From positions 1-20,596 of IMG/VR virus record IMGVR_UViG_3300011258_000425: a stretch of DNA of 20,596 bases; one strand, given 5' to 3'. Both the position numbers and the translations under genes were made by a program. This document shows, piece by piece, positions 3,005-14,679 of this stretch (position 1 is its first letter; each line of letters begins with the position of its first letter). The stretch is from a virus. Below the pieces are notes generated by a model that made no database searches, was not told the DNA's origin, and was given only the letters and a program-made list of their open reading frames with translations.

Positions 3005-6000
3005 CTAGTCTTCTTCTTCTTCTTCCTCAGGCAACCAGTCGAGGGTGCGGTTGAGGAATGCTTGGGTTAGTACGTGGTTTCCCATGGGTGCCCATGCGGT
3101 CACGAATTTCTTCACATCCTCCTCACTTCCCGGTTGGTCCGTAAAGAGACCTCCGGTTGCTCGGAGCATTGAATAGAAACGTGATCGGGTAGCATTGCCC
3201 AAGAAAGGGTCCCCGGCGAGGCCGGATGCCCTAGATTTAGAGAATAGAGGTGATACCTCATCGAAGCCCGCCCAATTCAGCGCGGACAGCGGGAGGTCGA
3301 TAGCGTTCGGTATTAGAGAGGCGTGGGCTGAATAGTAGAAAGAGGCTTTACCCATTTCCGCCATAGTCCACCGCTCCTCGAGGAACTTCTCTCGCTCCTC
3401 TTCATCGGCGATAGCTTCAGCCTGCGCACGAACCCGCGCCATGTAACCTAAGCTGCCACCCATAGACATCGCTAGGACTTCCGCGACAGCTCGCGTGTCC
3501 TTTACGTTGAAGGCGAAGCCTAGGTGTTTAGAAGCTGCATTGAGTGGGAAGTTGAGGAATTGGAACAGCAGCGTCGTTGACGGGGAGTTACGCATGAAGA
3601 GGGCTTGGTGACCCAAGTCTCCCTCCATGACCACCCTACGCGCATTACGATCCAGCGCGTTGATGAAGGCGTCGAGAGCCTCAGGGTCATCCCACGCGTC
3701 CAAGTCGAAGTTAGGTCTCGGCTTACCTGTATCAGGGCTTTCGATCTCATCCATCTTCTTGAGTTGGGCTGACATGCGCTGCCACATATCCTCGTCTATA
3801 CCCATAGCTGCCATCCGGCGAACGCTGTAAGGCATCTTACCTTTACGCGCGAACTTAACGAAGTCCTGAGCCTCAGCCGTTACGATCGACATACGGAGCC
3901 ACTCTTGGAGAGGGGCCATGCCGGACATACGAGACACTGTATTGGCTTGTTTACGGGTGAAGGTGTCGACCTTCTCCTGTGCCTTAGACATAGGGTCAAT
4001 GAGGTCCTCAAAGTCCCCTTCGTACCTGCTGTTAAAGCCTTGGAGCCTAGAGCGTAACTGAGAGGACCCGTGTCCCATCACAACGTCAGCTAGGTGGAAT
4101 ATGTTGCTGACCACCTCAGGATCACCGGAGCGTGCCAGCTTGTAGTACCTGCGGAACTCTGGGAACTGACGGAACAGTCGGATAGGACCAGTACGGACGA
4201 GAACACCAGCAACCTCAGACAACGCGAGGAAGCCCGTGTTCGACATTAGGTTACCGAAGTTCAGTCGTCTGATCTGATTGGTTACCCAGTTCCAAGTTGG
4301 ACGCTTCATGAGTTCCTCAGGTGGAACCCCTAGGATTGCATCGCGCATATCCTCAAGCATCGAGGCCTCTCTGGAAGCCTTGCCTTGGCGGGTCGGGTCA
4401 CCTGAAGACCTCTTCCTGATCTTAGTGATCTCGGCGTTCAACTCGGATACTGAGTTAAAGCCAGCACGGAGTAACCCAGCGTGCCCTGAAAGTTGCCTAC
4501 GGTATGTCGTGAAGAGTGCTTCAGCATTCCAGTCGAACATGTCGAGGATTTCAGCATCCTGCTCCGCGTCGAGATCGAGCTTCACCCTAGGGCGAGCGCG
4601 AGGGCTGTCGGCAGCTTTCTTCTTCTGGGGAGCTACGAGGTCTAGGATCATCTCAATGGCGTCCTCTACGTTCTCAGCGAACTCAGCGCCGTCGTTGAAG
4701 ACTTCGCGAACAACCTCACGGGCAGCTTCACGGTCACCTTGGCGTACTGGACGGTGAGGGTTAGAGTTACGCATTGCAGGGTTCGTCAAACCATCCACCG
4801 TCTCCATGTACTTGTTGGCTATCTTACGGGCCAAGGTGTATTCATCCACACCCATACGCTTGGAGAGGTCTGAGAGCCACTCCCGGTTGGACCGGAAGAT
4901 TACTTTAGCTAGACGTGACGCTACACCCTTAGGACCCTTCAGGTCGTTTGACACTCGGTTGTATCCGTCAGCACTAAAGCGGCGGTAGACGTAGGCAGGA
5001 TCATGCTCAATGTCCCTGAAGTCGTCGATGCCACGGTAATCGCCTTCCTCCAGTTCGTCAGCCTGTCGACCTGTGACGTGCTGGCGATCTCTGACGTACT
5101 TGAGGGTATCCTCGTAACCGTCCCGGTAGGCAGCTACAGCGCGATTGATTGCAGGATCATCCGACTTACGGACACCTGCGTGAACCTGCGCCACTGTCTT
5201 GAAGAACTCATCGAGCTGTTCGGAGGTTGGGGCACCTGTACGGCCCAGAGCATTGCGAGCATTGAAGTAGTCCACAGCGGCCATTCGGGCCTGACGGACG
5301 TACGCCGCTCCACTCTCGTAGACACGGCGCTGCGCTTCGAATGCAGTGGTGCCTTGTCTGGACCGGGTGTTAGGGTTCCATGAAAGCATGTCACTTAACT
5401 TACGGGTTCCTGCGTCTAGAGAGCGGGATAGGTAGTTCAAAGGCGTACCAAAGATGTGGAAGCCTGCCTGCTCAGGAGCGTCGTCGAGAGCATTTAGAGG
5501 TGTTCGGTCAACTTCGCGTATTACTGGTTTAGCCTGTTTGGCACCTACAGATGACCCTTGGTAGTTCTCAAATCCTTCAGCAATGGTTTCGTCAATCTCT
5601 TTAAGCTCGTCAGCGTCTACGCCCTTCTGGAGACCCCCGAAGGCCCCTGAGAGTACCACAGAGGCGAGGACAGCCGTAGCCGCATTACCTACAGAGGTAT
5701 CAGGATCAATACCAGCTCTCAGGAGTTCCAGTGGAGCATCAGCTGCACCGCCTGCTAGGCCAGCTCGAATAGCATTACCTGTGCGGGTGGAAGAAGCCCC
5801 TACCTTAAATATCTGGGCAGTACCTCCGCCAGCTAGCAGGAACGCAGGGTCGAACGCGTTGACACCAACACGGGTCACGAAGCCCCCTACTCCGGTATTG
5901 GAGTTGGCGATACGTGCCTCTCGGTTCTGGCGTTCTTGATAGGCGGACGCTAGAGCCTTCATGTCCTCCTCGGAGCGGGCAGATGCCAGCTTCCCGAAGT

Positions 6001-12746: not shown

Positions 12747-13718
12747 CTAAACACGGTCGCGGACGACGAATGCTTCTTCTGGGCGCAACTCGCCGTGACC
12801 CACGAGCATACGGCTTGTAACCAGCGTAGCGTTGTGAGTGACTTTGTAGTCGTTACCAGTCATGCCAACAGATAGGTCGCGTACTTTGACGGTACCAACC
12901 GCGCCCGGACGCCAGCCGATGCCGACAACATCAGTCGCATCAACATCATACTTACTGTTGTGCGTACCAGTGACGTTGCCTGTTGGGACGTTGTTCGTCT
13001 TCACGAGGTTGAACGTGTGAAGCTGACGGACCTTAGCTGTAGCCTGATCGGCGATAGAGCCGTAGTCAGAGCTGATAGTCTCGTTGTCAGATGCCAACAG
13101 GTGGTACTGGGCAGGTTTGAGACCGAAGTAACGATCCTCCTCCGGGATGTCCTTCTCGTCGTAGTTGATAGCGCCAGCCACAAGAGCGGCCTTTAGCTTA
13201 GCAACATCAGTCGAGACACCAGAGCTGTCGATGATCTTACCGACTGTCTTAGCTTCGTAAACGTCGCCTGTACCTGCGAAGCGAGAAGTTGTATTCATCG
13301 CAGCTTTGATCAGCATACGAGCAACGTTCGCGTCATAGAGACGTGCAATTGCGCGGCCATCCTCAGTAGAGAACGGACCACGGTAGTCGAAGTGAGACAT
13401 CGCTTGGTCGATCTCGGCGATAGCTGTAGCAGCTTCGAGGAAGTCGTCGACTGTGATGATGGTCTCAGATAGGTTACCAGCCTGACCTGTAGTCATGGTA
13501 CCGGGAACATGGTAGCTCGCGGTCTTACCGCCTACAGACGGGAACTGGGCAGACTTACCTGATTGCAGTGTACGTGTGTACGTGCGTGAACCGAAGACGT
13601 TAGTCTCCGAATACGCAGTGAACACCTCACCGCCGTAAGTCTTAAGGAATAGGGCGCGGTCATCGCCAGCTTGATTGATCTGACCACCGCGTACTAGAGT
13701 GAAATCTGGTGCAGCCAT
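12747..13718 (-). CDS. Major capsid protein, 323 aa
   Basis: T7 gp10-like HK97-fold shell protein (T7 gp10A is 345 aa), located between the scaffold/holin-like genes and tubular protein A. Features are the N-terminal segment RALFLKTYGGEVFTAYSETN, a middle segment FDYRGPFSTEDGRAIARLYD, and the C-terminal LVTSRMLVGHGELRPEEAF with HGELRPEEA typical of these capsids. I chose the ATG at 13718 because AAAGGA lies 8 bases upstream; the in-frame ATG at 13727 overlaps that Shine-Dalgarno sequence and has none of its own. It is the only gene here with its own promoter, a long structured leader and a terminator on both sides, consistent with the highest expression level. No canonical frameshift heptamer for a longer form is visible. 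Confidence 0.94.
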   Translation of the reverse strand: MAAPDFTLVRGGQINQAGDDRALFLKTYGGEVFTAYSETNVFGSRTYTRTLQSGKSAQFPSVGGKTASYHVPGTMTTGQAGNLSETIITVDDFLEAATAIAEIDQAMSHFDYRGPFSTEDGRAIARLYDANVARMLIKAAMNTTSRFAGTGDVYEAKTVGKIIDSSGVSTDVAKLKAALVAGAINYDEKDIPEEDRYFGLKPAQYHLLASDNETISSDYGSIADQATAKVRQLHTFNLVKTNNVPTGNVTGTHNSKYDVDATDVVGIGWRPGAVGTVKVRDLSVGMTGNDYKVTHNATLVTSRMLVGHGELRPEEAFVVRDRV

Positions 13719-13920
13719 TAGGTGCATCCTTTCGTGACATAAGGTTTCGCTTGAAGTTGAAGCGGCCTTGGGTCCTCTCTCGGGTACTCAGAGCTATCGT
13801 TGGCGATCCCCGCAGGGTTCGAGCTACTAGATGTCTCGTTGTAATTGAGTAGAAGATTGGGCCAAGCTGCCTAACTAAGAAGCAGCACATGCTTGGCGTC
13901 ACAAAGGTATATTCCCGCTC
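13719..13920 (-). promoter_or_regulatory. Structured 5' leader of the capsid mRNA
   Basis: About 200 bases from the predicted transcription start to the capsid ATG with no credible gene. The minus strand contains a perfect 7-bp stem GCCAAGC/GCTTGGC (13861-13897) with an alternative inner pairing of GCTGC with GCAGC, a CGAG/CTCG stem (13820-13838), and a CGCTT/AAGCG stem (13748-13764) just before the Shine-Dalgarno AAAGGA at 13727-13732. The hairpins could stabilise the transcript or tune initiation. Pairings are by eye; no known riboswitch class is recognised. Confidence 0.55.
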
Positions 13921-13926
13921 GGTAAC

Positions 13927-13935
13927 ATTATACCA
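13927..13935 (-). promoter_or_regulatory. Extended -10 promoter (TGGTATAAT) for the capsid gene
   Basis: The minus strand carries a perfect TATAAT preceded by TGG, the extended -10 form TGN-TATAAT used by bacterial sigma-70. No good -35 hexamer is visible 16-18 bases upstream, which extended -10 promoters can do without. It lies 44 bases downstream of the terminator at 13979-14018 and about 200 bases upstream of the capsid start. Position and match support a host-polymerase promoter; activity is not shown. Confidence 0.65.
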
Positions 13936-13978
13936 GCAGGTGCATGAATTTTGGATAAAACTTCCTGATCGGGAAGAT

Positions 13979-14018
13979 AAAAAACCTCGGGCGTATGCAA
14001 GGCAGGGACGCACCAAGG
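13979..14018 (-). terminator. Intrinsic terminator upstream of the capsid promoter
   Basis: The minus strand forms a 10-bp stem, CCTTGG-GCGT pairing with ACGC-CCGAGG, with one bulged T and one G-U pair, a 13-base loop, and then six T's. It would stop transcripts coming from the portal-scaffold-holin genes before they reach the capsid gene, leaving the latter to its own promoter. Confidence 0.82.
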
Positions 14019-14028
14019 TGAATGAGTA

Positions 14029-14100
14029 ACCCCTCGGCTCTCGTGTTAACGGAGCGTTGCTCTCACGAGGGTCGCATTCGCGTATTGGAATGGGAGGGGT
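14029..14100 (-). other. Possible three-way-junction RNA element
   Basis: In the minus-strand RNA a perfect 7-bp outer stem (ACCCCTC at 14100-14094 with GAGGGGT at 14035-14029) encloses two hairpins: CATTC/GAATG (14075-14092), and CTCGTG/CACGAG (14040-14069) continued by an inner GAGC/GCTC stem. All pairs are Watson-Crick. It lies just upstream of the terminator in the non-coding block before the capsid gene. No known RNA family is recognised; it might be a processing signal, an anti-termination element or the body of a small RNA ending at the terminator. Confidence 0.5.
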
Positions 14101-14137
14101 CTTATACGGTTTCGCGTATGGGGAACTCGTAAAGAAT

Positions 14138-14163
14138 GACCCCCGCTCCGAAGAACGAGGGCC
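14138..14163 (-). other. cUUCGg hairpin after the holin-like gene
   Basis: The minus strand reads GGCCCTCGTTC, TTCG, GAGCGGGGGTC: an 11-bp stem with three G-U pairs closed by the very stable cUUCGg tetraloop. The following bases ATTCTTT are a poor U-tract, so it could be a weak terminator or a 3'-end protecting hairpin. It begins 39 bases after the stop of the holin-like gene. A short (GT)n run at 14170-14181 lies between them. Confidence 0.65.
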
Positions 14164-14202
14164 AAGTTCACACACACACATGACTGGAGAGTCACATGAA
14201 CT

Positions 14203-14679
14203 TTAGGATATACCTCCCGGCCCCTTAGAGGTCAACGGGCTATTCTTCCCAAAATGCGGAAGACGAACAGGGAGGTTAGTTAAGCTGCGGATACCGTAAG
14301 ACACGGCAGCACCAGCTAAGACGATCTGGATGTACCAAGGGGGTACACCCTCCAGTGCCGAGAAGCCGTCAGTGACGAGTTCCTTACCACCGGGGATAAA
14401 TGAGAGGACCAGAGGTACCGAGAAGAGGAGTAGCATGTACTCATCCTTCCAGCTCTTATCGCTGTTGCGAGCCATGATCTGTTCCCACTCTTGGGTATGC
14501 TCTTGAGCGTTCGCCGCCATGTTGATTACAGCGGTAGCGCGCGCTTCCTCAATACGGGCCTTGCTTTCGAACTTAGCGATCTCTAGGCGCATCTTCGCCT
14601 CGGCTGTCGCCTTACGCGTCTCGAAGACATCCTTGACAATTCCGAGGATGCCTTCACCGATGAGGGACCAGATAGCCAC
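14203..14679 (-). CDS. Holin-like membrane protein, 158 aa, GTG start
   Basis: The N-terminus (about 1-17) is amphipathic (MAIWSLIGEGILGIVKDVF), followed by a charged helix or coiled coil (residues 20-75). Two hydrophobic segments follow, about 81-96 (YMLLLFSVPLVLSFIP) and 115-132 (WYIQIVLAGAAVSYGIR), then a basic, Pro/Gly-rich tail. The SWKDEYMLL-SFIPGG-WY-SYGIR pattern resembles small membrane proteins annotated as three-segment holins in marine podophages. If so it would form inner-membrane lesions that release the endolysin, which is not in this window. The start is a GTG one base after the scaffold stop (TAAGGTG), so it depends on coupled translation. Its place between scaffold and capsid differs from T7, where the holin gene is 17.5. 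A virion-associated role is an alternative. Confidence 0.65.
   Translation of the reverse strand: MAIWSLIGEGILGIVKDVFETRKATAEAKMRLEIAKFESKARIEEARATAVINMAANAQEHTQEWEQIMARNSDKSWKDEYMLLLFSVPLVLSFIPGGKELVTDGFSALEGVPPWYIQIVLAGAAVSYGIRSLTNLPVRLPHFGKNSPLTSKGPGGIS

Follow-up and report, generated by a model that had tools for sequence, protein, structure and literature searches.

A three-way-junction RNA element in the gap upstream of the major capsid gene of T7-like podophages

The stretch of DNA analyzed here (the window) is a 20.6-kb virus record of a T7-like podophage, in which PHROGs recognise genes for portal, scaffold, major capsid, and internal virion proteins as well as a phrog_2524 gene. 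The minus strand is the coding strand for these phage genes. A gap of 475 bases separates the phrog_2524 gene (14203–14679, minus strand, function unknown) from the T7-like major capsid gene (12747–13727, minus strand), for which the ATG at 13718 is the probable start codon. This gap holds a three-way-junction fold (14029–14100, minus strand), which lies downstream of the phrog_2524 gene and some 270–310 bases away from the capsid start. The major capsid gene of T7-like phages is highly expressed. The gene for a single-subunit RNA polymerase was detected in all six clade relatives (E < 1e-105), which places the clade among the T7-like phages with an RNA polymerase of their own; the window fragment ends short of this gene.

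The sequence-only reading of the locus had proposed a three-way junction made up of a perfect closing stem and two hairpins, and folding of the minus strand confirmed this architecture. The outer stem comprises 7 bp, in which the 5′ strand ACCCCUC (14094–14100) pairs with the 3′ strand GAGGGGU (14029–14035), position 14100 being matched with 14029 and 14094 with 14035. Comparison with relatives revealed A-U/C-G exchanges at two positions of this stem. The outer stem encloses hairpin 1 (14073–14093; CC-AUUC...GAAU-G(C)G with a bulged C at 14074), the junction linker ACC (14070–14072; the same in all three family members), hairpin 2 (14040–14069), and a second junction linker AGCC (14036–14039; AGMC in the alignment of the three family members described below). 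In hairpin 2, the stem CUCGUG/CACGAG pairs 14069–14064 with 14045–14040, and in the window a small inner stem is added. The minimum free energy of the minus strand (14100–14029) was −24.3 kcal/mol (z −3.26) and none of 200 shuffled sequences reached this value; thus, the fold is better than that of shuffled sequence. The antisense copy, folded in isolation, was even more stable than the sense strand (−36.3 kcal/mol, z −4.8). Since the energies are good for both strands, folding energy alone cannot assign the strand, but comparison with relatives does.

For this comparison, the capsid protein was used as bait and yielded relatives sharing 61–75% identity with it. A second bait, a conserved leader hairpin, brought in the relative L028, and the upstream gene used as bait yielded zero confirmed relatives. 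Of about a dozen relatives fetched, only L028 and L035 shared the element with the window phage, in each case in the gap before the T7-like capsid gene. In L028 (2841–2975), the same junction was found (z −3.75, no shuffle as good), and it still forms on its own folding with a hairpin 1 that is longer by about 65 nucleotides. In the 3′ portion of the element, 50 of 54 bases are identical between window and L028, whereas agreement drops to about half of the bases in the flanks and amounts to 69% over the capsid gene; the conserved block stops at the borders of the fold. L035 is a contig of phage origin from a metagenome bin labelled Flavobacteriales, to which it may have been wrongly assigned. 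Its element (3669–3735) consists of different stem sequences (z −5.66, no shuffle as good) and its hairpin 1 is a 7-bp stem with a UUUA loop. Hairpin 2 had originally been described as two-tiered. The inner tier is present in the window and in L028, but in L035 the stem is a continuous 9-bp helix, so that two tiers are not a defining feature of the element.

All 19 base pairs were kept in the three members, in six cases through changes of both partners, no pair was broken, and the junction letters CUCCCA / UGCGACCCUC / GAGAGMCGAGG were unchanged. Shuffles matched this covariation result in 2 of 500 cases, and slid controls, in which the pairing partners were moved by 1–3 columns, gave zero doubly changed pairs. 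For the covariation alignment, the loops were trimmed manually and with knowledge of the structure, which biases the result towards it, and loops were replaced by N before pair counting because MAFFT had misplaced gaps in hairpin 1. As the trimming works in favor of the fold, two leave-one-out models were built. Here, we found that the model trained on the window and L028 recovered L035 as best match outside the training set (E 3.1e-7) and that the model trained on L028 and L035 recovered the window (E 4.3e-8); both E-values are rough owing to a short calibration. In L035, hairpin 1 contains a U-G and hairpin 2 a G-U wobble pair. On the other strand, these would be A-C mismatches, and pairing on the coding strand only indicates that the sense RNA is likely to be the functional molecule. 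The number of known members is three, two of which differ little within the element. Taken together, homologues at the same locus, compensatory changes, and leave-one-out recovery support the three-way-junction RNA as a real element with an invariant core.

The element had also been placed in non-coding DNA. This part of the earlier description needs qualification for the window, where an open frame of 173 codons (14181–13660, minus strand) crosses the fold, but it holds insofar as this frame had no PHROG match and the corresponding frame is interrupted by stop codons in L028 and L035. A protein-coding reading of the element was therefore rejected.

To compare the element with known RNA classes, we searched Rfam 15 (4227 families) at gathering and permissive thresholds and obtained no match at or above gathering score. 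The only match was a chance similarity to the MS2 operator (16.7 bits vs. a cut-off of 40). A DNA similarity search of named phages and plasmids returned chance matches of 18–21 bases only, and in the open-access literature nothing relevant was found on a comparable phage element. Its kind, structured non-coding RNA of phages, is already known, and within this kind the element is a new, uncatalogued motif that matched nothing in Rfam 15, named phages, or plasmids, which agrees with the original proposal of a new structured RNA. A validated fold with a core of 56 positions is available that is directly testable in vitro.

Several known systems resemble the element in part. With the tRNA genes of T7-like phages it shares the slot upstream of the capsid gene, a 7-bp closing stem, and a length of about 72 bases; however, it has three helices rather than four and lacks a T-loop. 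A tRNA or degenerate tRNA was rejected, as ARAGORN found no cloverleaf and there was no match to Rfam RF00005. Like the messages of T7, which carry RNase III sites and leader hairpins, the phages studied here have structured gene borders, but the element is branched with a sequence-invariant junction, in contrast to an irregular hairpin. HDV-like ribozymes are defined by a nested pseudoknot. Our element differs from them in that it is a three-way junction, apparently lacking a nested pseudoknot, and has no Rfam match. The HDV-like theta ribozymes of gut phages are likewise phage RNA devices linked to tRNA genes (PMC10879173).

The type II and type III hammerheads (Rfam RF02276 and relatives) are small three-way junctions with a conserved core that lie between phage genes in the same clade, as our element does. 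Natural type II hammerheads are common in bacteria and some of them are located in intergenic regions of phages (PMC3088659). The element differs from them by the absence of CUGANGA, GAAA, and an NUH site, by its junction linkers (0/ACC/AGMC), and by the bulged C in hairpin 1. A hammerhead was rejected because the CUGANGA...GAAA...NUH core is missing from the element, and a descriptor scan of the window found none. Elsewhere in the clade, hammerheads occupy the borders of early genes: L044 contains three of type II above the Rfam cut-off. For the genome G003, the descriptor indicated eight type II hammerheads and one of type III between early genes (L049 18500–20000, L050 1–3000, minus strand), and several of these begin at the stop codon of the preceding gene. 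One type III hammerhead was found by descriptor in the phage of L035, and the hammerhead loci also include L046 (about 227) and L058 (about 9000). The outer stem of the L035 element itself begins within the stop codon that closes a small gene and in this respect resembles the starts of the type II hammerheads of G003.

Upstream of the fold lies an element that we call E1 (14129–14198, minus strand). It consists of a hairpin, a single-stranded GUGUGUGUGUG, and a terminator-like hairpin with UUCUUU, includes a GUGUGUG run, and was kept in the window and 11 relatives despite changed stems (12 of 12 readable phages). In the window, a second terminator-like hairpin precedes the fold (14164–14137). 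On the sense strand of six full relatives, 42 of 59 CACACAC runs are located within 40 bases upstream of a frame-opening ATG, as compared with three on the other strand; three more distant T7-like genomes contain six such runs, one of them near an ATG. E1 could be a putative late RNA that silences early genes by pairing with their CA-rich leaders.

Downstream of the fold, the window carries a terminator-like hairpin with T6 (13979–14018, minus strand), and the terminator that had been noted next to the fold is thus present. It was seen in the window only; behind the folds of L028 and L035, a T-run terminator is absent. It is followed by a hairpin CTTCCCGATCAGGAAG with TTTT (13957–13976, minus strand), which is also found in L028, there without the T-run, and by an extended −10 promoter-like TGGTATAAT between fold and capsid gene (13927–13935, minus strand), again in the window only. 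The capsid leader contains E5 (13859–13896, minus strand), a bulged hairpin of the form CCAAGC-bulge-CUGC...GCAG-CUUGG that covaries in relatives. Across six distinct sequences, two of its pairs show changes in both partners, and it is altered in L003 and L035.

A search for sigma-70-type promoters detected none for a separate RNA between the two terminators of the window, and a search for a promoter-like motif of the phage polymerase found no repeat. For TATAAG (14101–14106), a weak −10 candidate, the earlier doubt stands, as a start from it would cut into the outer stem. The sequence-only reading had suggested a short RNA ending at 13979. This did not hold up as a general feature, since the downstream terminator is specific to the window and the interval between the two terminators contains no fitting promoter; such an RNA is possible for the window phage, but it is not the conserved arrangement. 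Because a conserved promoter or terminator around the fold is missing, the fold appears to be part of a longer transcript.

The content of the slot between E1 and the capsid leader varies from phage to phage. In L014, L033, and L011 it is occupied by tRNA genes, the cultured Rhizobium phage RHEph21 has two tRNAs there, and other well-folding stretches fill it in L001 and L010. In the capsid-upstream gap of RHEph21, a weak match to abiF RNA (38.0 bits vs. a cut-off of 37) was seen ahead of these two tRNAs (L069 23001–23036). A motif CUGCACGAC...GUCACGAUA within a longer, covarying-looking stem was observed in the same slot of L001 (~2638–2677), L002 (~590–628), and L004 (~2673–2713); these three phages do not have the three-way junction. 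Shortly 5′ of the capsid start, a GGCCC-hairpin-GGACAACC motif recurs in L062–L067 and in clade loci, that is, in several T7-like phages of different hosts.

Model searches of the fetched relatives and of whole clade genomes gave no further convincing copies of the element. It was absent from the seven named phages that are near by capsid (L062–L070), and among 149 genomes from the class of the L035 bin only L035 itself matched. A loop-sequence scan returned L028 as its only match. Two hits of an IMG/VR core-pattern scan, L036 and L037, are located within genes and were regarded as chance; L036 folds otherwise. In the capsid tree, the carriers do not group together. With support, the closest phage to L028 is L013 and the closest to the window is L006, and the shortest capsid distance of L035 is to L008; L013, L006, and L008 are all devoid of the element. 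The element is patchy, each carrier having a close relative without it. This scattering indicates that the element was either gained and lost or exchanged, and its presence in only three of about a dozen relatives means that capsid expression does not depend on it.

From the fold, its conservation, its strand, and its place we infer that the element may act in cis on the late transcript, as a processing or stability element by which an RNA end is set or protected, a tentative reading to which we assign a probability of about 0.4. The element would be transcribed within the late phage transcript from the non-coding gap that has the scaffold/phrog_2524 genes on one side and the major capsid gene on the other. 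There, it would serve as punctuation: being compactly folded, it would mark or protect the end of an RNA that is processed or terminated between the upstream genes and the capsid message. Members of the clade put other RNA devices (hammerhead ribozymes, tRNAs, conserved and terminator hairpins) at such gene borders, and it is before the major capsid gene that the element is found. However, the carriers number only three among about a dozen relatives and are scattered on the capsid tree, and in the window a terminator and the extended −10 motif separate the fold from the capsid gene, so that it may be off the capsid message there.

The strongest competitor, which we regard as possible but doubtful, is a separate accessory RNA gene that acts in trans and travels as cargo of the RNA-gene slot, like the tRNAs of sister phages. 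The tRNA genes in this slot, the patchy distribution, the end of the conserved window–L028 block at the fold borders, and the position of the fold between two terminators in the window are consistent with such cargo. On the other hand, the sigma-70-type search found no promoter of its own, L028 and L035 lack the downstream terminator, and the fold offers no long unpaired conserved stretch as pairing seed.

A new class of small self-cleaving ribozymes, built around the core with the invariant junction letters and used by T7-like phages to cleave the late transcript ahead of the capsid gene, appears unlikely. A compact core with invariant junction bases, covarying stems, and freely variable arms (one of them extended by 65 nucleotides) is the look of such ribozymes, and relatives (L044, G003, the phage of L035) use hammerheads between genes. 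However, riboswitches and protein-binding RNAs share this look, neither the hammerhead core nor any Rfam ribozyme family is matched, and with few members a cleavage site cannot be placed. If self-cleavage were true, the element would add a ribozyme class; otherwise, it would represent a new element for the processing or regulation of late phage messages.

Quite improbable, too, is a candidate binding site for a phage protein (e.g., capsid protein or phage RNA polymerase) or a small ligand that adjusts capsid synthesis. The position before a highly expressed gene and the invariant junction bases would fit, but in close relatives that lack the element the capsid gene is equally intact and other leader elements are retained in its place, and some 270–310 bases separate the fold from the capsid start. 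A chance fold, a DNA cruciform, or coding sequence, to which the open frame of the window and the well-folding antisense strand might point, is hardly credible in view of the compensatory changes at the same place in three phages, the leave-one-out recovery, the closed frames in L028 and L035, and the G-U pairs that fit one strand only.

Apart from the capsid-upstream gap, group I introns were observed in L013 (3371–3988, within the capsid gene) and in L049 (7208–7479). At either end of the G003 contig (start of L048, end of L050) stands a tandem repeat of twelve bases, GGTGCCTAGGGT, and these are likely to be terminal repeats.
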